Below are positions 33,016 through 46,022 of a stretch of 64,000 nucleotides of DNA, piece by piece. The position numbers and the translations under genes are program-made. The stretch covers positions 310,001-374,000 of the forward strand of contig NZ_WNXQ01000001.1 in assembly GCF_009789075.1 (NCBI RefSeq), written 5' to 3'. Below the pieces are notes generated by a model. That model was not told the DNA's origin. It saw only the letters and a list, made by a program, of their open reading frames with translations, and did no database searches. This DNA is from Pseudooceanicola pacificus. Its GTDB lineage: Bacteria; Pseudomonadota; Alphaproteobacteria; Rhodobacterales; Rhodobacteraceae. Numbering within the stretch: the first letter of the stretch is position 1; each line of letters starts with the position of its first letter.

Positions 33016-33867
33016 TCAGCCCGGGGACATGCCCCGCAGCCGTTCGGACCGGCGGCGCAGCAGTTCGACCACGGTCAGCAGGACGATCGAGATCGCCACC
33101 AGCATCGTCGCCACCGCGAGGATTGTCGGCGATATCTGTTCGCGCAGGCCGATGAACATCTGCCAGGGCAGCGTCTTCTGGCCGGCGGAGCCGACGAAGA
33201 GCACCACCACCACCTCGTCGAAGGAGGTGATGAAGGCGAAGAGCCCGCCCGAGATCACCCCCGGCAGGATCAGCGGCATCTGCACCCGGAAGAAGGTTGT
33301 CACCGGATCCGCGCCCATGTTGGCCGCCGCGCGGGTCAGCGAGCGGTCGAAGCCGACCAGCGTTGCCGTCACGGTGATGATCACAAAGGGAATGCCAAGC
33401 GCCGCATGTGCCAGCACGACGCCCAGATAGGTGCCCTGCAGACCGATGCGCGAGTAGAAGAAATACATCCCCGCGGCCGAGATGATCAGCGGCACGATCA
33501 TCGGCGAGATCAGGATCGCCATGATCGCCCGGCGGAACGGCACATGTTCCGACGACAGCCCGATGGCCGCCAGCGTGCCGAAGCCGACCGAAAGCAGCGT
33601 CGCCATCGGCGCGATCTTCAGCGAATTCCACATCGCCGCCTGCCAGTCCGAGGTCTGGAAGAAGTCGCGGTAATGCTTCAGCGAGTAGCCTGCCGGGTCG
33701 AGCCGCAGCATTTCCGGCGTGAAGGTGAAGAAGTCCTCGGCGTTGAAGCTGAGCGGCATCACCACCACGATGGGGGCGATCAGGAAGAAGAAGATCAGCC
33801 CGCAGATCACGCGGAAGGCGTAGTACCAGATGCGCTGGCCGGTCGTGGCGTACGGAGGAAGTCCCAT
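33016..33867 (-). CDS. Pot-type ABC transporter permease, second subunit (PotC/PotI-like)
   Basis: Inner-membrane permease of 283 residues with six helices. The EAA coupling loop is AAANMGADPVTTFFRVQMPL, followed by ILPGVISGGLFAFITSFDEV, typical of the spermidine/putrescine family. It starts five bases after the first permease's stop and is the last gene of the leftward operon, ending at the repeat region. It should pair with the larger permease and the ATPase at 38142-39242. Confidence 0.92.
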   Translation of the reverse strand: MGLPPYATTGQRIWYYAFRVICGLIFFFLIAPIVVVMPLSFNAEDFFTFTPEMLRLDPAGYSLKHYRDFFQTSDWQAAMWNSLKIAPMATLLSVGFGTLAAIGLSSEHVPFRRAIMAILISPMIVPLIISAAGMYFFYSRIGLQGTYLGVVLAHAALGIPFVIITVTATLVGFDRSLTRAAANMGADPVTTFFRVQMPLILPGVISGGLFAFITSFDEVVVVLFVGSAGQKTLPWQMFIGLREQISPTILAVATMLVAISIVLLTVVELLRRRSERLRGMSPG

Positions 33868-33872
33868 GTGCG

Positions 33873-35468
33873 TTACCCCAGCTTCACGTTGTCGATGCCC
33901 ACGATCCGGTCATAGGCGTAGTAGAGGATCAGAACCGCCGCCAGCAGGATCGAGCCGAGCGCGGCCGCGAGGCCCCAGTTCAGCGATGACGAGATGTGAT
34001 AGGCGATCCGGTTCGAGATGAACGTCCCCGTCGTGCCCCCCACGATCTCGGGCGTGATGTAATAGCCGATGGCCAGGATGAAGACGAGGATCGAGCCCGC
34101 GCCGATGCCCGGCACCGACTGCGGGAAGTAGACCCGCCAGAAGGCCACCCAGTTCGTCGCCCCGAGGGATTTCGCCGCGCGCAGGTAGGTCGGCGGGATC
34201 GTCTGCATCACGGAATAGAGCGGCAGGATCATGAACGGCAGCAGGATATGCGTCATCGCGACGATGGTGCCGAACTGGTTGTTGATCATGATCAGCCGTC
34301 CGCTGTCGGATATGATCCCCAGCCAGACGAGCACGTCGTTGATCACCCCCTGCTGCTGCAGCATCACCTTCCAGGCGGAGGTGCGCACCAGCAGCGAGGT
34401 CCAGAACGGCAGCAGCACCAGGATCATCAGGATATTGGCCGTGCGCATCGGCAGGTTCGCCAGCAGCCAGGCCACCGGGTAGCCCAGCATGATGCAGCTC
34501 AGCGTGATGGTGATCGACATGAAGATCGTGCGCTTGAACAGGATGCCGTAGATCTGTTCGTTCTCGGGCCGGGCCGAGACGCCATCGGCCGTCAGCTGCG
34601 CATCCACCGCGTTCAGGAAATAGCCGGGCGTATAGGCCGGCGAATAGGTCTTGATCGTCGCCCAGACCTCGTGATTGCCCCAGTCCTTGTCGGCGTCGAT
34701 GAACTGCTGCTCGATGGAGACGGGGGTGAAGGTCTTGACGGCACCGGCGGCCTGCTCCAGCCGTGGCGACAGGCCCGAGACATCGGCGCCGGCCATCAGC
34801 TCGGAATAGAGCGAGGTGAAGAGGAAGGGCTCGACATCCTCTTTCGCCGGGTCCTCGTTCTTGGTCTGCAGGAAATCCGTCCACCGCTGCCAGAGATGCG
34901 CCGTCTGCGGCAGGGCCTTGGCGATATCCTCGTTGGCGAACATCGCGGCCCAGGTGGCCGGGTCCTTCCAGCTCGGGTCCAGGGCGGCAAAATCGTCGAC
35001 ATATTTGTCGGTGTCGAACCGGTCGACCGCGCGGCCCGTCTTGCGGAACAGCGACGAGATGCCGGTGAGTTCATAGTTCAGCCGGGTGCCGAGGCGGGTG
35101 TGCAGTTTCTGCTCGGCGGCCAGGAACATGTCGTAATAGGCGGCTTCGAAGACCTTCTCGTCCGGCAGTTCGGTGGTTTCCTCGTCCCAGCTCTTCAGCG
35201 CCTCGACGGTCATCGGCAGCGTCTCCTGCACGATCTCGTTGCGGACGGACCGGAAGAGCATGTCGGCAATCGGCGCGATGAAGGTGATCAGAACAAAGAT
35301 CAGAAGCGGCGCGATCAGCATCAGCGCCCGCAGTTTCTGCCGCCGCAGCGCGCGGTTCAGGCTGCGCTTGAGCGGCGTGCCGTCGGCAGCCAGCATCGGG
35401 CCGGGTTTCGCGCCGTTGCCTGACGTCTGAGCGTCCATGCTGCCGGGATCGGTGGAACTGGTGGTCAT
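33873..35468 (-). CDS. Pot-type ABC transporter permease with large periplasmic insertion (PotB/PotH-like)
   Basis: The 531-residue product is far longer than ordinary PotB (about 285-310). After a ~45-residue polar N-terminus comes helix 1 (~47-75), then about 220 residues without membrane helices (~76-300, rich in Trp, Asp and Lys). The usual permease core follows, with EAA loop AAKSLGATNWVAFWRVYFP. The insertion should lie in the periplasm next to the binding protein. ATG 35468 follows AAGGGG. Upstream lies a 250-bp gap with two strong hairpins. Confidence 0.9.
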   Translation of the reverse strand: MTTSSTDPGSMDAQTSGNGAKPGPMLAADGTPLKRSLNRALRRQKLRALMLIAPLLIFVLITFIAPIADMLFRSVRNEIVQETLPMTVEALKSWDEETTELPDEKVFEAAYYDMFLAAEQKLHTRLGTRLNYELTGISSLFRKTGRAVDRFDTDKYVDDFAALDPSWKDPATWAAMFANEDIAKALPQTAHLWQRWTDFLQTKNEDPAKEDVEPFLFTSLYSELMAGADVSGLSPRLEQAAGAVKTFTPVSIEQQFIDADKDWGNHEVWATIKTYSPAYTPGYFLNAVDAQLTADGVSARPENEQIYGILFKRTIFMSITITLSCIMLGYPVAWLLANLPMRTANILMILVLLPFWTSLLVRTSAWKVMLQQQGVINDVLVWLGIISDSGRLIMINNQFGTIVAMTHILLPFMILPLYSVMQTIPPTYLRAAKSLGATNWVAFWRVYFPQSVPGIGAGSILVFILAIGYYITPEIVGGTTGTFISNRIAYHISSSLNWGLAAALGSILLAAVLILYYAYDRIVGIDNVKLG

Positions 35469-35661
35469 GTCAGGCCCCTTCCGCGGGAAATTCGGTGCTG
35501 GAGACGGCGTGCCTTTGGCCCTGGCCCGGCCCTGCGCCGATTGCGGGCGCAAACGCCCTGCGATGGCCGAAAAGAGTGCCCTGTGGCATGTGTCGCGTCC
35601 CTGTTGTGCCGGGCGGTTCATGCCGCCCCGTCGTTGGGTGCCGGTTCCCCGGCCGGGTGTT

Positions 35662-35708
35662 GCGGGGCGGCGGACCGCCCCGCGGATGCGGCGGGATCAC
35701 CCCGCCGC
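35662..35708 (-). promoter_or_regulatory. Two strong stem-loops between second binding protein and permease genes
   Basis: On the transcribed minus strand, GCGGCGGG-GTGAT-CCCGCCGC (35688-35708) is followed by GCGGGGCGG-TCCG-CCGCCCCGC (35662-35683). They follow the binding-protein stop by 10 bases and have no T-run. Such structures typically protect the abundant upstream binding-protein message. Confidence 0.55.
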
Positions 35709-35718
35709 GCTCAGTGCA

Positions 35719-36831
35719 TTACTGCGCGAGCCACGCCTGGAACTTGGCGTCGATGTCGTCGCGGTAATCGGCCCAGAACTCGTAGTTGTAGATGAACGTG
35801 TTCTTGGCGTTGGCCGGATCGGTCGGCATATGCGGACCCATCTCGATGCCCAGTTCGGCATGCTTGCCGACCAGCGGGGCCGACGATTTGCGCGCCGGGC
35901 CGTACGAGATGTACTTGGCCTGATCTGCCAGACGCTGGGTGTCGGTGGCGAACTTCACGAAGTCCAGCACGCGGGCCAGGCGATCCTCGGGCAGGCCGGT
36001 CGGAATGATCCAGCCGTCAAGGTCGAACACCTGCGCGTCCCACAGCATGGCGACGGGCTGGTCCTGCTCTTCGATGACCGAGAACAGGCGACCGTTGTAG
36101 GTGGAGCCCATCACGACCTCGCCGTCAGCCAGAAGCTGGGGCGTGTCGGCACCGGAGGACCACCAGATCACGTCATCCTTGATCGTGGCGAGCTTGTCGA
36201 GCGCGCGCTGCTGGCCTTCCTCGGTTTCGAGAACGTCATAGATCTCGGCCTTGGGAACACCGTCGCAGAGCAGAGCCCATTCCATGTTGTTGATCGGACG
36301 CTTTTCCAGCGAACGCTTGCCGGGATAGGTCTCGGTATCGAAGATCGCGCAGATGTCGGTCGGCGGGGTGTCTCCCACCATGTCGGTGCGATAGCCCACG
36401 GTCGTCGAATAGACGATCTGCGGGATGTAGCAGTCCGACACCAGCATTTCGCCGAAATCGTCAGTCGGGGTCGAACCGTCATCGCCGGGTGCCAGCACCT
36501 CGTCGAAGTCGACCTCCATGGCCAGGCCCTCGTCACACAGGCGGATGGCATCGGATGCCACCACGTCGACCAGGTCCCAGGTGATGTTGCCGGCCTCGTT
36601 CATGGCGCGCAGTTTTGCGACCGCCTCGGCCGAGCTTTCGTCCCAGGTCACCGACACATCGGGGTGTTCGGCGAGATAGGGTTCGACATAGGCCTTTTGC
36701 TGGCTGTTCTGGTAAGCCCCGCCCCAGGAAACGAGAGTCATCTCGTTCGCCATGTCGGAGTGGCTTGCAGCATAGGCCGTCCCTGCGATCGCGACCGCGG
36801 TCGCGGCAAGTAGGGCTTTTGTCAGTTTCAT
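35719..36831 (-). CDS. Periplasmic solute-binding protein, Pot family (paralogue 2)
   Basis: A 370-residue receptor with Sec signal MKLTKALLAATAVAIAGTAYA. The mature protein begins near NEMTLVSWGGAYQNSQQKAY, typical of PotD/PotF-like receptors. IWWSSGADTPQLLADGEVVM and WADYRDDIDAKFQAWLAQ are shared with the upstream paralogue, and by eye about three quarters of residues agree. Differences cluster in the signal region and in loops such as NNMEW/NVEW and YNYEF/TQYDF, so ligand range may differ. It is in the same operon. Confidence 0.92.
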   Translation of the reverse strand: MKLTKALLAATAVAIAGTAYAASHSDMANEMTLVSWGGAYQNSQQKAYVEPYLAEHPDVSVTWDESSAEAVAKLRAMNEAGNITWDLVDVVASDAIRLCDEGLAMEVDFDEVLAPGDDGSTPTDDFGEMLVSDCYIPQIVYSTTVGYRTDMVGDTPPTDICAIFDTETYPGKRSLEKRPINNMEWALLCDGVPKAEIYDVLETEEGQQRALDKLATIKDDVIWWSSGADTPQLLADGEVVMGSTYNGRLFSVIEEQDQPVAMLWDAQVFDLDGWIIPTGLPEDRLARVLDFVKFATDTQRLADQAKYISYGPARKSSAPLVGKHAELGIEMGPHMPTDPANAKNTFIYNYEFWADYRDDIDAKFQAWLAQ

Positions 36832-36850
36832 CGTGGTCTCCCTTTAGTTG

Positions 36851-36872
36851 GGGCGGGGGTTGGCCCCCGCCC
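36851..36872 (-). promoter_or_regulatory. Stem-loop between the two binding-protein genes
   Basis: GGGCGGGGG (36851-36859) and CCCCCGCCC (36864-36872) form a perfect nine-pair stem with a four-base loop just before the second paralogue's ribosome site (AAAGGGAG). Confidence 0.55.
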
Positions 36873-36896
36873 TTCCGCCAGGGCGGCCTGCCAGGA

Positions 36897-38003
36897 TTAC
36901 CTGGCCAGCCACGCCTGGAATTTCGCGTCGATATCGTCGCGGTAGTCGGCCCAGAAATCATACTGGGTTACGAACACGTTCTTTGCGTTTGCCGGATCGG
37001 TCGGCATGTGCGGCGCCATGTCGATGCCAAGGTCGGCATGCTGCCCGACCAGCGGCGCCGAAGAGGCGCGTGCGGGGCCGTAGCTGATCCACTTCGCCTG
37101 ATCGGCGAGGCGCTGGCTGTCGGTGGCGAACTTGAGGAAGTCCATCACCCGGGCCAGGCGCGGTGCGTCAAGCCCCGCGGGAACGATCCAGCCGTCGAAG
37201 TCCAGCATCTCGGCATCCCAGAGCATGCCGATCGGCTGGTTCTGTTCGGCAATCGCCGAGAACAGGCGCCCGTTGTAGGTCGAGCCCATGACAACTTCGC
37301 CATCGGCCAGCAGCTGCGGCGTGTCGGCGCCCGCGGTCCACCAGATCACCTGGTCCTTGATCGTGCCCAGCTTCGCCAGCGCGCGTTCCTGGCCCTCTTC
37401 GGTGGCCAGAACGTCGTAGATTTCGTCCTTGGGCACACCGTCACAGAGCAGCGCCCATTCGACGTTGGCCAGCGGGCGCTTGTTCAGCGAACGCTTGCCG
37501 GGATAGGTGTCGAGATCGAAGATCGCGCAGATATCCTTGGGCGGCGTGTCGCCCACCATGTCGGTGCGATAGCCCACGGTCGTCGAAAAGACGATCTGCG
37601 GGATGAAGCAATCCGACACCAGCGAGTCGCCGAAATCGTCGGTCGGGGTCGAACCGTCGTCGCCGGCGGCCAGTTCGCCGTCAAAGTCGATCTCCATCGC
37701 CAGACCTTCGTCACACAGGCGGATCGCGTCGGCCGCTTCGACGTCAACGAGGTCCCATGTGATGTTCTTGGCTTCGTTCATGGCACGAAGCTTGGCCACT
37801 GCCTCGGCCGAGCTTTCGTCCCAGATCACATTCACCTCGGGGTGCATGGCCTGGTAGGGCTCGACATAGGCCTTCAACTGCGACTTCTGATATGCGCCAC
37901 CCCAGCTGACAATTGTCATCTCGTTGGCCATCTCCTGCGCCGAAGCCGCAACGCCTGTCAGGGCGAAGGCGGCAGACGCCAGGAGCGAAGCAGTCGTTTT
38001 CAT
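36897..38003 (-). CDS. Periplasmic solute-binding protein, Pot family (paralogue 1)
   Basis: A 368-residue receptor with signal peptide MKTTASLLASAAFALTGVAA (cleavage near ASAQ). It has the same architecture as the adjacent paralogue: NEMTIVSWGGAYQKSQLKAY, DFGDSLVSDCFIPQIVFS and WADYRDDIDAKFQAWLAR. It is the first binding protein after the ATPase gene in the leftward operon. Tandem duplication is evident from near-equal length and the same ends. Confidence 0.92.
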   Translation of the reverse strand: MKTTASLLASAAFALTGVAASAQEMANEMTIVSWGGAYQKSQLKAYVEPYQAMHPEVNVIWDESSAEAVAKLRAMNEAKNITWDLVDVEAADAIRLCDEGLAMEIDFDGELAAGDDGSTPTDDFGDSLVSDCFIPQIVFSTTVGYRTDMVGDTPPKDICAIFDLDTYPGKRSLNKRPLANVEWALLCDGVPKDEIYDVLATEEGQERALAKLGTIKDQVIWWTAGADTPQLLADGEVVMGSTYNGRLFSAIAEQNQPIGMLWDAEMLDFDGWIVPAGLDAPRLARVMDFLKFATDSQRLADQAKWISYGPARASSAPLVGQHADLGIDMAPHMPTDPANAKNVFVTQYDFWADYRDDIDAKFQAWLAR

Positions 38004-38096
38004 GCGATGTTTTTCCTTCTCGCAAAAGAACCCGTGATGGGATGCCCTCGGCCACTCGTCACGGGCGGGACGGTCGGGGCGTCGGGTGCCGCGCTT

Positions 38097-38123
38097 GCCC
38101 CGGCCCCGAGGGGCCGCGGGGGC
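38097..38123 (-). promoter_or_regulatory. Stem-loop between ATPase and first binding-protein genes
   Basis: GCCCC/GGGGC outer arms enclose GGCCC-cgag-GGGCC (38102-38115). It is the third of four cistron-boundary hairpins in this operon and lies upstream of the first binding-protein gene. Confidence 0.45.
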
Positions 38124-38141
38124 GCAGATCTTTCTTATTCG

Positions 38142-39242
38142 TCAGGCGTCCAGCGCGTGGCAATCGGACGGCAGCCAGCCGATCTCGATCTGGGTGCCGG
38201 GTTTGAGGCGCACCTGATCCGGGGCGTTCCGGGTCTTGATCACGAAGTCGCTGTTGCCGGCGACCCTCAGGCGGGTGCGGAAGATGTCGCCCATGTAGAT
38301 GAACTCCAGCACCTCGGCCTTGATGGTGTGGGCGTCGTCCGACATCCGTTCCTTGTTGTATTCCACCCGCTCGGGGCGGATCGACACGCGGGTGCGCTCG
38401 CCGGGCTTGCTGACGTTGACCGGCTTGCACTTGATGATCTCGCCATCATCCAGCCGGACCGTCGCGACATTGCCATCGATGCTCTCGACCACGCCTTCCA
38501 GCGTGTTGTTCTCGCCGATGAACTGCGCGACAAAGCTGTTTTCCGGGCTTTCGTACAGCGCGTCAGGCGGGGCCAGCTGCTGGATCTTGCCGTCGTTGAA
38601 CACCGCGACCCGGTCCGACATGGTCAGTGCCTCGGTCTGGTCGTGGGTCACGTAGACCACGGTGATGCCCAGGTTGTCGGACAGGTGCTTGATCTCGAAC
38701 TGCATATGCTCGCGCAGCTGCTTGTCGAGCGCGCCAAGCGGTTCGTCCATCAGCACCAGTTCCGGTTCGAACACCAGCGCCCGCGCCAGGGCGATCCGCT
38801 GCTGCTGGCCGCCCGAAAGCTGCGCCGGGCGGCGGCCGCCGAACTGGCCCATCTGGACCATGTCCAGCGCGCGCATGACCTTCTTCTCGCGCTCGTCCTT
38901 GGCGATCTTCCGCACTTCGAGCGGAAAGGCCAGGTTCTCGGCCACGGTCATGTGCGGGAAAAGCGCGTAGTTCTGGAACACCATGCCGATGCCGCGCTTG
39001 TGCGGCGGGATGTTGTTGATCGGCTTGCCATCCAGCTTGATCTCGCCGTGGGTGGCGGTTTCGAAACCGGCCAGCATCATCAGGCAGGTGGTCTTGCCGG
39101 AACCCGACGGCCCGAGCATCGTCAGGAACTCGCCCTTGGGCATCGAGAGGTTCAGGTCTTTCACGACTAGCGTTTCGCCGTCGTAGCTTTTTTGCACACG
39201 TTCGAATTCGACGAATGCGTCGCTCGCTGGTGTATCAGCCAA
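38142..39242 (-). CDS. Pot-type ABC transporter ATP-binding protein
   Basis: Cytoplasmic ATPase of 366 residues. Walker A is GPSGSGKTT, the signature is LSGGQQQRIALARAL, Walker B is LVLMDEPLGALD and the switch His is in YVTHDQTEAL. Residues ~245-360 are the TOBE regulatory domain seen in PotA/PotG (IRPERVEYNKERM). It starts 224 bp downstream of the aminotransferase stop; that AT-rich gap may hold an extra promoter. Confidence 0.93.
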   Translation of the reverse strand: MADTPASDAFVEFERVQKSYDGETLVVKDLNLSMPKGEFLTMLGPSGSGKTTCLMMLAGFETATHGEIKLDGKPINNIPPHKRGIGMVFQNYALFPHMTVAENLAFPLEVRKIAKDEREKKVMRALDMVQMGQFGGRRPAQLSGGQQQRIALARALVFEPELVLMDEPLGALDKQLREHMQFEIKHLSDNLGITVVYVTHDQTEALTMSDRVAVFNDGKIQQLAPPDALYESPENSFVAQFIGENNTLEGVVESIDGNVATVRLDDGEIIKCKPVNVSKPGERTRVSIRPERVEYNKERMSDDAHTIKAEVLEFIYMGDIFRTRLRVAGNSDFVIKTRNAPDQVRLKPGTQIEIGWLPSDCHALDA

Positions 39243-39466
39243 AAGTGGCTCCCCGTTTTTGTCTTACCATGCGGAATTTGTCCCGCTTATTTTTACCAAC
39301 TAAAACGCGTCCATTCCCGCGTTGCAACCGAAAGGCGTCGTTTTTGGGCCATTTGCGACGCCCATGAACAATTCCCTAGGGTTAGGTAGAGCGCCACGGT
39401 GAAATGTCCCGCAGTTTCTGCGTTGCGGCGCGCCGGGGGAACCCGACGCGCCCGGATGGAATGGCC

Positions 39467-40837
39467 TCAGCCGAGCACCGATTCCACCGCCTTTTTTGTC
39501 TTGCCGGCGATCTCGTCGGCCTCGGCCTCGGTCAGGCAGAAGGGGGGTGCGAAACCCAGGATATCGCCCTGCGGCATCGCCCGGGCGATCACGCCCTGCT
39601 CCAGCAGCGCGGCCGAAACCTTGGCGCCGACGGTCCTGGACGGATCGAAGAAGGCGCCCTTGTCCGGGTCCTCCATGAACTCGATCGCGGCGATCATGCC
39701 CTCGCCGCGCACCTCGGCGACCTGGCCATGCGCGCCGACCGCATCGGTCAGCGCCGCATTCAAATAGGCGCCGTTTTTCCCGGCGGCCTCGACCAGGCCC
39801 AGATCGTCGATCAGCTTGAGGTTGGCGACACCCGCCGCGGCGCCGATGGGATGGGCGGAATAGGTCCAGCCGTGGCCGATGGCGCCGTTTTCATCGGTGC
39901 CCTGTTCCAGAACCTTCCACATCTTGTCGCCCACGATGGAACCGGACAGCGGCGCATAGGCCGAGGTCAGGCCCTTGGCGATGGTGATCAGGTCGGGCTT
40001 GATCCCGTAGTGATCGGATCCGAACATCGAGCCGAGACGCCCGAACCCGGTCACCACCTCGTCGGCGATCAGCAGGATGTCGTGCCGGTCCAGCACCTCC
40101 TGCACGCGGGGCCAGTAGCCTGCGGGCGGGGGGACGATGCCGCCGGTGCCCATCAGCGGCTCGCCGATGAAGGCGGCGATGGTGTCGGCCCCTTCACGTT
40201 CGATCAGCGCCTCAAGCTCGGCGATCAGATGATCGGTGAACTGCGCCTCGGTCATCGCGCGGTCCTTGCGGCGCAGGTAATAGGGCGCGTCGGTGTGGAT
40301 CACCTGCGCCAGCGGCAGGTCGAACTTCTTGTGGAACAGCTCCAGCCCGGTCAGCGAGCCGGTCATCAGGCCCGACCCGTGATACCCGCGCCAGCGGCTG
40401 ATGATCTTCTTCTTCTGCGGACGGCCGAGGATGTTGTTGTAATACCAGACCAGCTTGATGTTGGTCTCGTTCGCATCGCTGCCGCCCAGCCCGAAATAGA
40501 CCTTGGACATATGCGACGGCGCCCGGTCCAGCACCATCTTGGCCAGGGTGATCGAAGCCTCGGTCCCGTGGCCGACATAGGCGTGGTAATAGGCCAGCTC
40601 CTTCGCCTGCTCGGCAATCGCCTCGGCGATCTCGGGGCGGCCATAACCCACGTTCACGCAATAGAGCCCGGCAAAGGCGTCCAGCAGACTGGTGCCGTTG
40701 CGGTCGGTGATGTGGCAGCCGCGCGCCGTCTGGATGATGCGCGAGGGCGCCTCGCCCCGGGCGAACTGCGCCAGGTGGGTCGAGGGGTGAAAGAAATTCT
40801 CGCGGTCCCATTGGTCGAGCTGGTCGTTACGCAGCAT
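39467..40837 (-). CDS. Class III PLP aminotransferase (omega-amino acid / diaminobutyrate type)
   Basis: A 456-residue fold-type I enzyme. The PLP Lys is in [14 protein letters not shown], the PLP-binding Asp in [13 protein letters not shown], and the substrate-side segment is [18 protein letters not shown]. Relatives act on putrescine, beta-alanine, taurine or L-2,4-diaminobutyrate. Beside ectoine-hydrolase-like and deacetylase genes, a role in removing the gamma-amino group of diaminobutyrate (DoeD-like step) is plausible but inferred. It lies 42 bp downstream of the eutC-like gene. Confidence 0.9.
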
Positions 40838-40879
40838 GGTCTCTCCTTTTCTCGTGTTGCCGCGCCGTGGCGCGGATGA

Positions 40880-41869
40880 TCAGGCGCGGATCACGGTGCC
40901 CGCCGCGCTGCCCGAAAGCAGCGTCGCGACGTGGCTGGCGATGGCCGTGTCCTGCGCGCCGGTGCCGGTGAGATCGCAGATCGTCACCTCGTCTTCGGCC
41001 TGCCGTCCGGGGGCCTGGCCGGTCACGACCTGCCCCAGTTCAAGGATCGGGCCCGGCATCAGGCCCGCGGCCCGCGCATGGGCCAATTCGCCCAGAGTCT
41101 CGCATTGTGCGGCCCGATCCGCAACATAACGCCCCGCGGCGGCCAGAACGGCGGGGGCAAGCTCGCCCTTTCCGGCCTGGTCGGACCCCATCGCGGTGAT
41201 GTGCAGGCCGGGGTGCAGCCAGTCCGCCTCGATCAGCGGTTCGCGCGACGGTGTGGTGGTCACGACCAGCTGCGACCGGGCGACCAGCCCGGCCCGGTCG
41301 GCGGTGGCTTCGGCCTCGATCCCCAGTGCCGCCGACAGGTCCGCGGCGCAGGCTTCGGCCTTTCCGGCATCCCGCCCCCAGACGAGCACCCGGCGGAAGG
41401 GACGCACCAGATGCGCCGCCTGCATCTGCAGCCGCGCCTGCACCCCGGTGCCGATCACCCCCGCCGTGTCCACCTGCGCCGGCGCCATGTGCCGCGCGGC
41501 CACGGCCCCGGCGGCGGCGGTGCGCAGGTCGGTCAGATAGCCATTGTCGAGGAACAGCGCCTGCACCAGCCCGGTCCTGGCCGAAAACAGGATCATCAGC
41601 CCGTTCAGCGAGGGCAGCCCCAGCCCGGGATTGTCGAAGAACCCCGGCGAAACCTTGATCGCGAAGCCGTCGAAGCCCGGCAGATAGGCCGTCTTCACGT
41701 CCACCTCGCCATTCGCCTCGTGCAGCGCCATCGACAGGATCGGCGGCATCACCACCCCCTCGCCCGCCAGCGCGGCAAAGGCGCGTTCGACCACGTCGAC
41801 CAGCGCGAGGTCCAGCCCCAGCACCGCCCGCAGCTCTGCCTCGGTCACGATGCGCACGTCATGCGGCAT
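40880..41869 (-). CDS. eutC: Ornithine cyclodeaminase / mu-crystallin family protein (EutC-like)
   Basis: A 329-residue NAD(P)-binding protein. The substrate Lys region is GFAIKVSPGFFDNP, and LFLDNGYLTDLRTAAAGAVA is conserved. The Rossmann loop is GVIGTGVQARLQMQAA, and DLTGTGAQDTAIA near the end is the family mark. Members make proline from ornithine or reduce cyclic imines. In ectoine/hydroxyectoine clusters the homologue is EutC. It overlaps the eutB-like gene by 11 bases, so the two proteins are probably made together and act on linked steps. Confidence 0.82.
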   Translation of the reverse strand: MPHDVRIVTEAELRAVLGLDLALVDVVERAFAALAGEGVVMPPILSMALHEANGEVDVKTAYLPGFDGFAIKVSPGFFDNPGLGLPSLNGLMILFSARTGLVQALFLDNGYLTDLRTAAAGAVAARHMAPAQVDTAGVIGTGVQARLQMQAAHLVRPFRRVLVWGRDAGKAEACAADLSAALGIEAEATADRAGLVARSQLVVTTTPSREPLIEADWLHPGLHITAMGSDQAGKGELAPAVLAAAGRYVADRAAQCETLGELAHARAAGLMPGPILELGQVVTGQAPGRQAEDEVTICDLTGTGAQDTAIASHVATLLSGSAAGTVIRA

Positions 41870-42851
41870 AGGGCACCCCCGTCACGGTCACGTCTCCCAG
41901 TTGCACGTCCTGCCCGGTCACCACGCGGGTGAACTGCGCCATGTCGACATTGCGCCCGGTCAGGATGGTGCCCACCGGCCCCTCCGCCACGACCTTGCCC
42001 GCCATCAGCGCGGCCAGCCCCACGACCGAGCCGCCCTCGGCGACCAGCCCGTCGCGGTGGAACAGGGCCTGCATGGCGGCATAGATTTCGCCCTCGCTTA
42101 CCAGCACCACGTCGTCCAGCAGGTCGCGACACATGGGAAAGCTCAGCCGGTTGCGCATCCCGATCCCGCCGCCCAGGCTGTCGGCCAGGCTTGGCACCTC
42201 CTCCACCGCCACGGGTTGACCCGCGCGAAGGCTGTCGTGCATCGCGGCACCCCGGTCCATCGTCACGCCGATCACCCGGACCGCCGGATCGGCGGCCTTG
42301 GCGGCAAGGGCCACGCCCGCGGCCAGCCCGCCGCCCGACAGCGGCACAAGGATCGTCCGCAGGTCGGGCTTCTGCGCCATCATCTCGGCCCCCACGGTCG
42401 CCTGCCCGGCGATCACCAGCGGGTCGTCAAAGGGGGAAATCTCGGCCAGCCCCTCTTCGGCCACCAGGCGTTCGACCTCGGCCTGGGCGTCATCCTGGCT
42501 GCGCCCGGTGATGCGCACCTCGGCGCCAAGCGCCCGGATGCCGTCGACCTTGGCCTGCGGCACCAGCGCCGACATGCAGATCACCGCCCGCTTGCCCGCC
42601 GCCCGCGCCGCCCAGGCGACGCCGCGCCCGTGGTTGCCGGTGGAACAGCAGGTCACCGCGGGGGCATCGGTCGCGGCCACGGCATTCAGCGCCCCGCGCA
42701 GCTTGAAGGCGCCGATGGGCTGGCAGATCTCCAGCTTCAGCCACAGGTCGGCACCGGGGAACAGCGACGGCACCAGCGGTGTCGAATCCGCCCGGCCACG
42801 CAGGGTGCGCGCCGCCGCCTCGACATCTGCCATGCTGATCGTCCCTGTCAT
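41859..42851 (-). CDS. eutB: Threonine dehydratase-like PLP lyase (EutB-like)
   Basis: Fold-type II PLP enzyme of 330 residues. The PLP Lys is in PIGAFKLRGALNA, the phosphate loop is VPLSGGGLAAGVALA, and CCSTGNHGRGVAWAARAAG is the substrate loop. Such lyases dehydrate hydroxy-amino acids. In hydroxyectoine clusters EutB is proposed to act on the hydroxylated diaminobutyrate product. ATG 42851 follows GAGGCGG and opens the long leftward operon. A GTTGTGCACAAC palindrome lies 23-34 bp upstream of the start. Confidence 0.82.
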   Translation of the reverse strand: MTGTISMADVEAAARTLRGRADSTPLVPSLFPGADLWLKLEICQPIGAFKLRGALNAVAATDAPAVTCCSTGNHGRGVAWAARAAGKRAVICMSALVPQAKVDGIRALGAEVRITGRSQDDAQAEVERLVAEEGLAEISPFDDPLVIAGQATVGAEMMAQKPDLRTILVPLSGGGLAAGVALAAKAADPAVRVIGVTMDRGAAMHDSLRAGQPVAVEEVPSLADSLGGGIGMRNRLSFPMCRDLLDDVVLVSEGEIYAAMQALFHRDGLVAEGGSVVGLAALMAGKVVAEGPVGTILTGRNVDMAQFTRVVTGQDVQLGDVTVTGVPYAA

Positions 42852-42873
42852 TTCCGCCTCTTGATGCCCGCCA

Positions 42874-42885
42874 GTTGTGCACAAC
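42874..42885. promoter_or_regulatory. Candidate GntR operator, copy 1
   Basis: GTTGTGCACAAC is a perfect 12-bp palindrome just upstream of the eutB-like start. Its core TTGTGCACAA fits the TTGTnnACAA type of operator bound by FCD-GntR regulators, and such a regulator is encoded at 45372-46022. Confidence 0.65.
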
Positions 42886-42979
42886 TCACTCACGATTCCG
42901 GCAAGGTCAACCTTCGCACCCATCACAGAGCTTGTATTTCCTGAAAACGACAGGTGCAGTTCGGAAATGGAACGGCAGA

Positions 42980-42991
42980 GTTGTGCACAAC
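42980..42991. promoter_or_regulatory. Candidate GntR operator, copy 2
   Basis: An identical GTTGTGCACAAC, 41 bp upstream of the ectoine-hydrolase-like start. The centres of the two copies are 106 bp apart, close to ten helical turns, so both would face the same side of the DNA. Confidence 0.65.
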
Positions 42992-43031
42992 CTGCGAAGG
43001 GGGACAAAACGTCAGCCCACGGGAGACCGCC

Positions 43032-44216
43032 ATGATCCGCAAGTCGATTCCCTTTTCGGAGGCCGAGTACCAGCGCCGCCTGGCCAAGACCCGCGACGCG
43101 ATGGAGGCGAAGGGGATCGAGGTTCTCTGCGTCACCGACCCGTCCAACATGGCCTGGCTGACGGGTTATGACGGCTGGTCCTTCTATGTCCACCAGGGGG
43201 TTGTCGTCTTCCTCGACCGCGACCCGTGGTGGTGGGGCCGCTCGCAGGACCGCAACGGCGCCCTGCGCACCATCTGGATGGAGGACAGCTGCGCCTATGG
43301 CTATGCCGACCATTTCGTCCAGTCGACGGAGCGCCACCCGATGCAGGAACTGGCCGCGCAGCTGCGCGCCATGGGTGTTGCCACCGCCCGCATCGGGGTC
43401 GAGATGGAAAACTACTACTACAGCGCCAAGGCCCATGCGGTGCTGACGCACGAACTGCCCGACGCCCGGTTCATCGACGGAACGGCGGTGGTGAACTGGT
43501 GCCGCACGGTGAAATCCGCCGAAGAGCTGACCTTCATGCGCAAGGCGGCGAAGATCTCGGAAAAGATCGTCGACGGCTGGCTGGAGCGGGTCGAACCCGG
43601 CGTGCCCAAGAACCACGTGGTGGCCGAGATCATGCGCGACGCGGTGATGGGGGTGGATGACGCCTGGGGGGATTACGCCGCCATCGTGCCGCTGCTGCCC
43701 TCGGGCACCGATGCCGCCGCCCCGCATCTGACCTGGGACGGCCGCCCCTTTGCCGAGGGCGAGGCGACCTTCTTCGAGATCGCCGGCTGCTACCGCCGCT
43801 ATCACATCCCCTTCTGCCGCACCGTCTTTCTGGGAGAGCCGCCCGACCTGTTCAAGATGGCCGAAAGCGCGCTGGTCGAGGGGCTGGAGGCCGGGCTGGA
43901 GGCCGCCCGCGCCGGCAACCGCGCCTGCGACGTGGCCGAGGCGCTGGCCGCGCCGCTGGAAATGGCCGGCATCACCCGGGGGGCGCGCTGCGGCTATCCC
44001 ATCGGCCTCAGCTACCCGCCCGACTGGGGCGAGCGCACGATCTCGCTGCGCGCCGAGGACGAGACGGTGCTGGAACCCGACATGACCTTCCACTTCATGC
44101 CCGGCCTCTGGATGGCCAACTGGGGGCTGGAGATCACCGAATCCATCCGCATCACCGAAAACGGACCGGCGGAATGCTTCTGCGACCGGCCGAGAAAGAT
44201 GTTCGTCAAGAAATGA
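43032..44216 (+). CDS. doeA: Ectoine hydrolase-like M24/creatinase-fold enzyme (DoeA/EutD family)
   Basis: A 394-residue creatinase/prolidase-fold protein. The motifs NMAWLTGYDGWSFYVHQ (40-55), RNGALRTIW and HFVQSTERHPM are hallmarks of DoeA/EutD, which opens the ectoine ring to N-acetyl-diaminobutyrate. FFEIAG places Glu249 where DoeA has its catalytic Glu. The M24 metal ligands are not conserved (FFEIAG and IPFCRT replace the usual Asp positions), agreeing with a metal-free hydrolase. It heads the rightward operon, and its stop overlaps the deacetylase start (ATGA). Substrate identity is inferred. Confidence 0.82.
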   Translation: MIRKSIPFSEAEYQRRLAKTRDAMEAKGIEVLCVTDPSNMAWLTGYDGWSFYVHQGVVVFLDRDPWWWGRSQDRNGALRTIWMEDSCAYGYADHFVQSTERHPMQELAAQLRAMGVATARIGVEMENYYYSAKAHAVLTHELPDARFIDGTAVVNWCRTVKSAEELTFMRKAAKISEKIVDGWLERVEPGVPKNHVVAEIMRDAVMGVDDAWGDYAAIVPLLPSGTDAAAPHLTWDGRPFAEGEATFFEIAGCYRRYHIPFCRTVFLGEPPDLFKMAESALVEGLEAGLEAARAGNRACDVAEALAAPLEMAGITRGARCGYPIGLSYPPDWGERTISLRAEDETVLEPDMTFHFMPGLWMANWGLEITESIRITENGPAECFCDRPRKMFVKK

Positions 44217-45385
44217 CCTCACTCGACACCACGCGCGACATCCTGGGCGAGCTGATCGCCCACCCCACCGTCTCGGCCGACAGCAATCTCGAGATGATGG
44301 CCTGGATGGCGAACTATCTGGAAGACGCGGGCGCGCAGGTCGAGCTGATGCATGACGACACCGGGCTCAAGGCGAACCTCTTTGCCACCGTCGGCCCTGA
44401 GCGGCCCGGGGGCATCATGCTCTCGGGCCATTCCGACGTGGTCCCGGTCGAGGATCAGCCCTGGTCCTCCGATCCCTTCGCGATGCGCGAACACGACGGG
44501 CTGCTCTACGGGCGCGGGGCCTGCGACATGAAGGGGTTCATCGCCGCCTGCCTCGCCATGGCGCCGGACTGGACGGGGCGCAAGCTGACCCGCCCGATCC
44601 ACTTCGCCTTCACCCATGACGAAGAGGTCGGCTGCCTCGGCGCGCAATCCCTGGCCGAGGTGCTCAAGGGGCGCGAGGCCCGCCCCTCGGTCGCTGTGGT
44701 GGGGGAACCGACCTCGATGCGGATCATCGAGGGGCACAAGGGCTGCTGCGAATATCACGTCACCTTCACCGGGCGCGAGGGCCACGGCTCGCAGCCCGCG
44801 CTTGGCGTCAACGCGGTGGAATACGCCACCCGCTACGTCGCCCGGCTGATGGAACTGCGCGAGGCGCTGACCCACCGGGCGCCCCCGGGCGGGCGGTTCG
44901 AACCGCCCTGGACCACGATCAACCTCGGCCGGCTCTCGGGTGGCTACGTGCCCAACGTGATCCCCGGCCTGGCCGAGGTGATGTGGGAAATGCGCCCGGT
45001 GCAGCAGTCCGACATGGATTTCGTGAAACGCGCCATCGCGGATTATGTCGAGGATATCCTCCTGCCCGAGATGCGCCGCACCTGCCCCGAGGCCGCGATC
45101 CACACCACCGTTCTGGGCGAGGTCGCCGGGCTGGAACCGATGGACGACAACGCCGCCCGGCGCATGGTGGCCGAACTCACCGGCGCCAACGGGGCCGACC
45201 TCGTCGCCTTCGGGACCGAGGCCGGGCTGTTCCAGCAGATCGGCATGGATGTGGTGATCTGCGGCCCCGGCTCCATCGAACAGGCCCACAAGCCCGACGA
45301 ATTTGTCTCGCTCACCCAGCTGAACACATGCCTCGCCATGCTGCACGGGCTTGGCGACCGGCTCACGGCCCATGGCCGAGGATAG
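44213..45385 (+). CDS. M20-family deacetylase (acetylornithine deacetylase-like)
   Basis: Zinc amidohydrolase of 390 residues. Metal ligands are in LSGHSDVVPVEDQPW (His, Asp), YGRGACDMKGF (Asp), THDEEVGCLGAQ (catalytic Glu and ligand Glu) and IEQAHKPDEFV (His). CGPGSIEQAHKPDEF is characteristic of ArgE. Next to an ectoine-hydrolase homologue it would remove acetyl from N-acetyl-diaminobutyrate, the job done in known clusters by DoeB/EutE of another family. Start ATG 44213 overlaps the upstream stop and is in frame with MTSLDTTRD. Confidence 0.88.
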   Translation: MTSLDTTRDILGELIAHPTVSADSNLEMMAWMANYLEDAGAQVELMHDDTGLKANLFATVGPERPGGIMLSGHSDVVPVEDQPWSSDPFAMREHDGLLYGRGACDMKGFIAACLAMAPDWTGRKLTRPIHFAFTHDEEVGCLGAQSLAEVLKGREARPSVAVVGEPTSMRIIEGHKGCCEYHVTFTGREGHGSQPALGVNAVEYATRYVARLMELREALTHRAPPGGRFEPPWTTINLGRLSGGYVPNVIPGLAEVMWEMRPVQQSDMDFVKRAIADYVEDILLPEMRRTCPEAAIHTTVLGEVAGLEPMDDNAARRMVAELTGANGADLVAFGTEAGLFQQIGMDVVICGPGSIEQAHKPDEFVSLTQLNTCLAMLHGLGDRLTAHGRG

Positions 45386-46022
45386 CCGCGCCCGGCTCGA
45401 CCGGCTCTACCGCGAGATGCGCCAGCGCATCTGCCTGCTCGATTGGCCCCCGGGCGCGCGCCTGTCGGAAACCGAGCTGGCGGCGGAATTCGGCACCTCC
45501 CGCACGCCGATCCGCCGCGCCCTCGCCCGGCTCGAAGACGAGGGCCTGCTGCAATCCCTGCACGGCGTCGGCACGCTGGTCACCGATGTCGACCGCGAAG
45601 AGATGGCCCGCACCTATGCCCTGCGGATGGAACTCGCCGAACTGGTCGGCCGCCTCTCGCCCGCGCCGGTCACGCCGGCCATCCTCGCCCGGCTCGACGG
45701 GTTCCGCGACCGGGCCGAACGGCTGACCCTGCAGCCGGACGCGCGCCACTTTGCCCAGCTCAACATGGACTTCTTCGACTTCGGCCTCTCGCTGACGGAA
45801 AACGCCGCCCTGCGCGAGACCTCGGAACGGCTCTACTATCGCACCGCCCGGATCTGGCTGCAGCAGATCGCGGCGCTCGACCTGGCCGAGGAATGCGACA
45901 CTTTCCGCGCCGAGGTCGACGAAACCGCCCGCGCCCTGCGCGCCGGCGACCCGATGGCCGCCGCGCTGGTCCGCCGCGCCCATATCTCGATGTCCGCGCG
46001 CCGCCTGGCCCCCGGGGACTGA
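45372..46022 (+). CDS. GntR-family regulator with FCD domain (cluster regulator)
   Basis: A 216-residue regulator. The winged helix (~5-70) has LDWPPGARLSETELAAEFG and the recognition segment TSRTPIRRALARLEDEGLL. The FCD domain (~80-205) has YALRMELAELVGRL and ARHFAQLNMDFFDFGLSL. It overlaps the deacetylase gene by 14 bases and is the third gene of the rightward operon. It is the obvious candidate to bind the two GTTGTGCACAAC sites. The usual ectoine regulator EnuR (a MocR fusion with an aminotransferase domain) is not present. Confidence 0.9.
   Translation: MAEDSRARLDRLYREMRQRICLLDWPPGARLSETELAAEFGTSRTPIRRALARLEDEGLLQSLHGVGTLVTDVDREEMARTYALRMELAELVGRLSPAPVTPAILARLDGFRDRAERLTLQPDARHFAQLNMDFFDFGLSLTENAALRETSERLYYRTARIWLQQIAALDLAEECDTFRAEVDETARALRAGDPMAAALVRRAHISMSARRLAPGD

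Follow-up and report, generated by a model that had tools for sequence, protein, structure and literature searches.

Ectoine is both an osmolyte and a nutrient in the sea, and the textbook clusters for its catabolism carry a DoeB/EutE deacetylase, the regulator EnuR and an importer of the Tea/Ueh or the Ehu type. In this study, we describe a 64-kb stretch of Pseudooceanicola pacificus DNA (contig NZ_WNXQ01000001.1, positions 310,001 to 374,000; hereafter the window) in which two divergent gene sets at positions 33016-46022 very probably form a variant cluster for the uptake and catabolism of ectoine and hydroxyectoine. Like the eut/doe clusters of Ruegeria pomeroyi, Sinorhizobium meliloti and Halomonas elongata, it joins a DoeA-type hydrolase, DoeD and EutB/EutC homologues to a co-located importer and regulator. 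In contrast to them, it has an M20 protein for DoeB/EutE, a Pot-family importer with a binding protein resembling gamma-aminobutyrate (GABA) receptors for Ueh/Tea/Ehu, and a GntR-FCD regulator for the MocR-type EnuR, and it has no EutA, DoeC or AsnC gene. An earlier note on this DNA had already held that importer, deacetylase and regulator are all unlike the canonical ones, and they are.

It has been reported that DoeB/EutE is related to M14 enzymes (PMC3187862) and that alphaproteobacterial clusters have either Ueh or Ehu importers (PMC13188858). In the portions of the open-access literature covered, we found nothing that links an M20/ArgE deacetylase, a Pot-type importer or a GntR-FCD regulator to the breakdown of ectoine. 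According to PMC13188858, putative Gram-positive ectoine clusters likewise do without eutE and have another amidohydrolase gene (abgB) nearby, have no EnuR in Bacillota and often hold a second eutD homologue; they differ from the window, however, in their deacetylase candidate, their PucR-type regulator and their lack of synteny with Gram-negative clusters, and they are putative too.

The leftward arm of the cluster comprises EutB-like and EutC-like proteins, a class III aminotransferase, PotA, two receptors and two permeases of an ATP-binding cassette (ABC) importer, and the rightward arm a DoeA-like M24 protein, an ArgE-like M20 protein and the GntR-FCD regulator. Every gene named in the earlier note is present, at the position and on the strand given there:

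33016..33867, minus strand: ABC permease, PotC-like (PF00528; NF007047 PotC 145 bits, below the cut-off of 326)
33873..35468, minus strand: ABC permease, PotB-like, with a long N-terminal part (PF00528; NF007044 PotB 163 bits, below 348)
35719..36831, minus strand: periplasmic receptor 1 (SBP_bac_8), GABA/opine-receptor subfamily (PF13416; PDB sequence matches; AlphaFold model)
36897..38003, minus strand: periplasmic receptor 2, paralogue of receptor 1 (81% identity)
38142..39242, minus strand: ABC ATPase, PotA family (TIGR01187, 383.6 bits against a cut-off of 355.6)
39467..40837, minus strand: class III aminotransferase, probable DoeD orthologue, i.e. diaminobutyrate transaminase (78% identity to Leisingera DoeD; NF005684 above cut-off)
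40880..41869, minus strand: EutC-like cyclodeaminase homologue (NF006141, 468.6 against 408; TIGR02992, 445.5 against 471.65)
41859..42854, minus strand: EutB-like hydroxyectoine-utilisation dehydratase (NF005680, 424.4 against 413; TIGR02991, 403.6 against 413.35)
42874..42885, no strand: predicted operator 1, GTTGTGCACAAC, upstream of eutB
42980..42991, no strand: predicted operator 2, GTTGTGCACAAC, upstream of the M24 gene
43032..44216, plus strand: predicted ectoine hydrolase, DoeA subclade, M24 (TIGR02993, 585 against 613; best PDB match Halomonas DoeA; alignment; trees)
44213..45385, plus strand: M20 ArgE-like deacetylase, proposed DoeB substitute (reading frame open from 44174; TIGR01892, 381.8 against 297.7; adjacency counts)
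45372..46022, plus strand: GntR-FCD regulator, FadR subfamily (reading frame open from 45351; PF00392 and PF07729 above cut-off; counterpart alignment; operator association)

The M24 gene most likely starts at 43032 rather than at the first possible start, 42954. The M20 start is probably near 44213, overlapping the M24 stop, as suggested by the open reading frame and by the 386-aa counterparts in L205, L214 and L276 (labels of this form denote the compared loci and genomes); the GntR gene starts near 45372. The host assembly (3.89 Mb, 22 contigs) is 66.85% complete. Six named relatives, five of them Pseudooceanicola and one titled Primorskyibacter, have hydrolases 84-91% identical to that of the window. 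A foreign island was considered and rejected, as the GC content of 66.1%, against 67.2% and 68.0% in the compared flanks, gives no foreign look. A promoter and terminator scan was uninformative (0 promoter-like signals; 8 terminator-like signals against 6.5 expected).

The best match of the hydrolase in the PDB is the ectoine hydrolase DoeA of Halomonas (508 bits, E 2.5e-151), whereas the first match of another type, a prolidase, scores 62; a creatinase or prolidase role was rejected, since the DoeA match is more than 400 bits better. In an alignment of 12 sequences, long invariant blocks are common to the window hydrolase, the Halomonas enzyme and their textbook relatives, and the protein is 60% identical to the hydrolase of the textbook Leisingera cluster (annotated Leisingera, Caballeronia and Chelatococcus ectoine clusters were used for comparison). 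Members of the same subclade serve two Pseudovibrio loci, L252 and L264, in which a hydrolase 66% and 64% identical to that of the window is the only strong DoeA of its genome (588 and 587 bits on TIGR02993, the next best scoring 147 and 150). There it is divergent from UehABC-Usp-EutABC-DoeB-AsnC-dehydrogenase genes, with DoeB above its cut-off in both loci and EutA, EutB and EutC above theirs in L252. A further subclade member, in L214 (Nitratireductor alexandrii), passes the DoeA cut-off with 620 bits. Because the subclade supplies the only strong DoeA of the otherwise textbook Pseudovibrio clusters, the NCBI cut-off of 613 looks too strict for it on these sequence comparisons.

Two further observations concern M24 enzymes. 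The closest plasmid matches, L009 (Alisedimentitalea) and L010 (Rhodobacteraceae M382), have only the hydrolase in common with the window; at 64-65% identity, it lies beside two short-chain dehydrogenase/reductase genes and a mandelate-racemase-family gene with no M20 or DoeB match, and L009 has Rieske oxygenase and trimethylamine methyltransferase genes at greater distance; possibly this is another use of the enzyme. A second, distant M24 gene, resembling the additional eutD homologue of the Gram-positive clusters, is found among the DoeD, EutC and EutB genes of several Pot and Ehu clusters (L047:4906, L133:2850-3989, L214:1432-2583 and L276:3588-4736, all on the minus strand; the L133 protein scores 183 bits on the DoeA_2-like model NF038259, below 575).

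In its profile the M20 protein is like the acetylornithine deacetylase ArgE, but it adjoins an ectoine hydrolase; N-alpha-acetyl-diaminobutyrate is N-acetylornithine less one CH2 group. The assembly yielded no match to the DoeB model TIGR02994 at E<=1e-60, the M20 gene instead standing beside the hydrolase. We counted partners in 149 loci, namely the window and 148 regions around the DoeA-type matches listed, the sample being confined to those matches; any match per gene was accepted, for M20 at an identity of at least 40%. The hydrolase has an M20 gene no further than 1 kb away in 92 of the 149 loci and a DoeB gene no further than 9 kb away in 24; 33 loci have neither, and none has both (Fisher p 2e-12, uncorrected for ancestry). 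In a second set of 80 named loci, ten of which were recognised as repeats of earlier genomes, M20 is present in 62 (18 with Pot, 7 with Ehu, 1 with a Ueh-like tripartite ATP-independent periplasmic transporter and 36 with no importer), DoeB in 2 and neither deacetylase in 16. At the level of 295 family genomes, which span 294 genera, 188 hold a DoeA-type hydrolase (E<=1e-80) and 39 a DoeB above its cut-off. One record, L244 (labelled Nocardioides marinus), has the same region as L118 of the window's own family and is probably a mislabelled assembly.

Moreover, the hydrolase tree suggests that the two deacetylases were exchanged both ways, M20 for DoeB and DoeB for M20. In a hand-picked tree of 69 rows (50 loci with M20 or DoeB, 13 named loci, 4 references, Halomonas DoeA and one outgroup, loci with neither partner being left out), 46 M20-type rows and the two Pseudovibrio rows with DoeB form a large, fully supported branch. 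A Mesorhizobium row with an M20 partner and a DoeA above cut-off (685 bits) sits among the DoeB rows with support of 93/93; two other M20 rows, L162 and L180, branch separately, and three M20/DoeB changes are required. A tree of 140 rows (136 of the 149 loci and 4 references, 13 loci being dropped for a recovered frame shorter than 350 or longer than 650 aa) requires two changes for M20/DoeB alone, and 28 if the rows with neither are taken as a third state. The swaps in both directions suggest the M20 protein as a replacement for DoeB. In L214, no DoeB match (E<=0.001) exists in the genome, and the M20 gene is accompanied by DoeD-, DoeC-, AsnC-, EutB- and EutC-type genes and by an EhuB above its cut-off (220 bits). 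Pot-type loci whose hydrolase adjoins neither M20 nor DoeB also occur, in 8 of the 149 loci and 12 of the 80 named loci (L046, L048, L105, L106, L117, L237, L240, L241, L246, L261 and others); two of them, L237 and L246, have DoeD-DoeC-AsnC-EutC-EutB genes.

Among the remaining enzymes, the aminotransferase shares 78% identity with the one in the DoeD position of the textbook Leisingera cluster and is probably a DoeD orthologue, and EutB and EutC are 55% and 56% identical to their counterparts there. Of the 92 M20-type genomes, 69 have a DoeD orthologue (E<=1e-190), as against only 5 of 107 genomes with no DoeA-type match at E<=1e-80; the corresponding figures are 31 against 2 for EutB and 24 against 1 for DoeC-type genes. 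Where an M20 locus with Pot genes has no local DoeD, the gene is found elsewhere in 19 of 30 genomes, and among 22 genomes with a distant DoeD tabulated by hand, 9 have a DoeC-type gene starting within about 2.2 kb of it and 8 have EutB within about 5.3 kb. In three Pseudooceanicola genomes (L202, L205 and L206), Pot-DoeD-DoeC-AsnC-EutC-EutB genes face M24-M20-GntR in one cluster, whereas other genomes split it, and the layout of the window is intermediate. The description of the locus as self-contained in the earlier note thus holds only in part: DoeC and EutA are absent here, and the Pseudooceanicola relatives keep DoeC- and AsnC-type genes in the same cluster. The same note had listed eutA, asnC/doeX and the semialdehyde dehydrogenase gene as missing from the window; none is in the cluster, but the window does hold, as its only DoeC-like match, an aldehyde dehydrogenase of 36% identity at about 10.4-11.7 kb, some 21 kb to the left. 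Neither a close DoeC (E<=1e-190) nor EutA (E<=0.001) was found in the assembly, absences that carry little weight because it is only 66.85% complete.

It is known that EutB and EutC are dispensable for growth of H. elongata on ectoine (PMC3187862) and that R. pomeroyi needs EutABC to use 5-hydroxyectoine (PMC8739950); on this basis, EutB and EutC in the window point to the hydroxyectoine branch, although EutA was not found. A 3-hydroxyaspartate-cycle cluster was rejected, as the BhcB and BhcD models score far below their cut-offs. In some Pot clusters (L047:4194 on the minus strand and five further loci) an EutA-like protein is encoded near PotA and DoeD; it scores 147 bits on TIGR02990, whose cut-off is 318. 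L198, a Mesorhizobium sp. AR07 plasmid, has a look-alike set of GntR, EutA-like protein, distant M24, amidase and Pot-type importer.

The regulator combines a GntR winged helix-turn-helix (PF00392) with an FCD domain (PF07729), as is characteristic of the FadR subfamily of GntR proteins, and the promoter region shared by the two arms carries a candidate operator for it. The motif came from a palindrome search upstream of the hydrolase with crude block shuffles and was then counted over 215 loci, excluding the ten repeated named loci and those with fewer than 260 upstream bases. The two copies of GTTGTGCACAAC in the window begin at 42874 and 42980, a distance of 106 bp, and the 3.89-Mb assembly has no other GTTGTGYACAAC. 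In each of three Pseudooceanicola genomes, too, a pair of sites at this same spacing, with no further site, adjoins the hydrolase; the L214 genome has one site, also beside the hydrolase. Among loci that have this GntR, 40 of 55 show the form TTGTNNACAA upstream of the hydrolase, against 2 of 90 M20 loci without it, 0 of 24 DoeB loci, which were outside the motif discovery set, and 1 of 46 others. It occurs 60 times in 62,350 upstream bases against 29 times in 3,982,549 other bases, an enrichment that is no independent test because the motif was found in an overlapping set of loci. Sites are present in Pot (window, L205), Ehu (L214, L276) and Ueh (L252, L264) settings, whose regulators are 50-70% identical to that of the window, with SRTPxRR invariant in 16 sequences; for these reasons one regulon probably unites the three importers. 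TTGTNNACAA resembles the TKGT/ACMA boxes of the FadR subfamily, with a spacing of 2 nt here and typically 3 (PMC4494728). An intergenic RNA fold (z -2.0) consists mostly of the pairing of the two complementary palindromes. A search for an EnuR-type match within the window returned none.

The importer is the least certain component, and Pot-type import of ectoine is the weakest link of our reading. The ATPase exceeds the PotA subfamily cut-off (TIGR01187) and the permeases are PotB/PotC-like, as in the PotABCD polyamine importers; the receptors, however, are closest to GABA and opine receptors. The AlphaFold model of receptor 1 (predicted local distance difference test score 85) has as its best structural match the SAR11 PotD with GABA, named a spermidine/putrescine-binding protein by its depositors; at ranks 2-4 come two GABA-receptor entries from Agrobacterium and a GABA sensor, opine receptors predominate below them, and entries titled polyamine receptors start at rank 35 (3e-15 against 1e-30). 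A polyamine importer was therefore rejected, and the alternative in the earlier note of a related diamine entering through a polyamine-type system is not supported. A small zwitterion such as ectoine would suit this receptor subfamily better than a polyamine. Pot-type genes are near 45 of the 92 M20 loci, divergent from the hydrolase in all 45; EhuA is near 6, with all four Ehu proteins above their cut-offs in L113, and neither is near 41. In the assembly, the best EhuB score is 75.7 against a cut-off of 190.9, and within the window no Ueh/Tea importer was found, the importer of the cluster being of the Pot family.

Some features of the Pot loci vary. In many Pot clusters a small conserved protein, which we take to be of the DUF1330 type, is encoded between the two permease genes (L068:6158 on the minus strand; 24 loci in total); in the window the permease genes nearly touch and this protein is missing. 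Another transporter set, PotFGHI-like and accompanied by a separate class III aminotransferase and a flavin adenine dinucleotide oxidoreductase, is often near M24-M20 genes (L088, L101, L121, L205 and others; five protein clusters of 17-22 loci each).

The mechanism that we propose would run as follows. The Pot-family importer, with its two GABA/opine-subfamily receptors, would take in ectoine and/or 5-hydroxyectoine; the M24 enzyme would open the ring to N-alpha-acetyl-diaminobutyrate, from which the ArgE-like M20 enzyme would remove the acetyl group in the stead of DoeB. DoeD would then transaminate diaminobutyrate to aspartate semialdehyde, and a dehydrogenase encoded elsewhere, which was not found in the incomplete assembly, would yield aspartate. 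EutB and EutC would serve the hydroxyectoine branch. The GntR-FCD protein would bind the two GTTGTGCACAAC sites in the shared promoter and probably repress both arms until an intermediate frees it. We strongly infer these enzyme roles from sequence relationships, and the proposal of the earlier note that this is a parallel ectoine/hydroxyectoine route is well supported by the relationship of the hydrolase, the M20/DoeB exchange, the identity of DoeD, the pairing with Ehu and the operator.

Several observations weigh against this reading. Besides the limits on the operator enrichment and on the Fisher tests, which like the one above are all uncorrected for ancestry, they include the scores of the hydrolase, EutB and EutC, all just below the cut-offs of their equivalog models (TIGR02993, TIGR02991 and TIGR02992); the absence from the cluster of DoeC, AsnC, EutA, DoeB, EnuR and a known ectoine importer; a local DoeD in only 15 and a local EutB in 5 of the 45 M20 loci with Pot genes; and the 33 of 149 loci in which the hydrolase has no M20 or DoeB partner. 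Of the 55 GntR loci, 15 lack the operator upstream, L049, L071 and L113 among them, and the L276 and L252 genomes lack the full 12-mer and have only a 10-base core upstream of the hydrolase. Finally, the solved relatives of the receptors bind GABA and opines, and ectoine is in none of those listed with a ligand (8jv2-8jv4, entries of the protein that is the best match, fall outside this statement), so that ectoine import stays a matter of inference. A rival explanation is that the enzymes do degrade ectoine but that the Pot system imports GABA, betaine or an opine-like amine, as a conserved neighbour or a broad zwitterion importer. We consider this possible, if doubtful: besides the receptor relatives, it has in its favour the 41 of 92 M20 loci with no recognised importer nearby, and the importer is tied to ectoine only by position and by its exchange with Ehu and Ueh. 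Yet the Pot genes are divergent from the hydrolase in every M20 locus that has them, the two arms in the window share a two-operator promoter, and Ehu takes the same position in other loci.

It is improbable, in our judgement, that the substrate of the M24-M20 pair is a related diamine, N-acylated or cyclic, such as an acetylated polyamine or an ectoine homologue, with the ectoine genes alongside by coincidence or as shared functions. DoeD is missing at the stated threshold from 23 of the 92 M20-type genomes, and a putrescine-like transporter and aminotransferase set is a fairly common neighbour, close to the hydrolase in about 17 of 91 M20 loci in which such sets were counted. Two of the 92 genomes, G013 and G267, hold DoeB elsewhere in addition to their M20-type locus, so that the two deacetylases might differ in substrate. 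However, the same hydrolase subclade serves textbook DoeB clusters and adjoins EhuABCD above cut-off, and the two deacetylases, never found together by one hydrolase in the 149 loci, replace each other both ways. Less probable still, and in our view very unlikely, is an ordinary acetylornithine deacetylase of arginine metabolism present by chance. The M20 protein does exceed the cut-off for that enzyme, but in 92 of 149 loci its gene stands no more than 1 kb from that of the hydrolase, in none of them together with DoeB, and a similar pair in Mesorhizobium adjoins a DoeA above cut-off.

We therefore regard the M20, Pot and GntR-FCD set, as judged from sequence, as a widespread and coherent variant of ectoine catabolism. 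One published inventory, the dataset described in PMC8739950, is restricted to clusters in which eutE adjoins eutD, another survey focused on genomes with EutD, EutE and EutB (PMC13188858), and among the Roseobacters compared in PMC10130141 the ectoine importer is described as unique or nearly so to R. pomeroyi. We lean, by a narrow measure, towards the view that an M20-based, EutE-less route, often with a GABA-receptor-type importer and a GntR-FCD repressor, is the commoner way of using ectoine in this family, that surveys based on eutE or on Ueh/Ehu missed most consumers, and that the Pot system is a new class of importer for ectoine, encoded in this cluster together with two receptors. M20-type loci are present in at least 92 of the 295 genomes, two of them overlapping with the 39 DoeB genomes, and if the M20 route works, the predicted ectoine degraders in the sample would rise from 39 to about 129, and the NCBI DoeA cut-off of 613 would shut out a working subclade. 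The operator would offer a simple marker of the regulon, and the two-way swap of deacetylases would be a clean case of non-orthologous replacement. Similar sets in many related bacteria would be overlooked by surveys keyed to the textbook genes.

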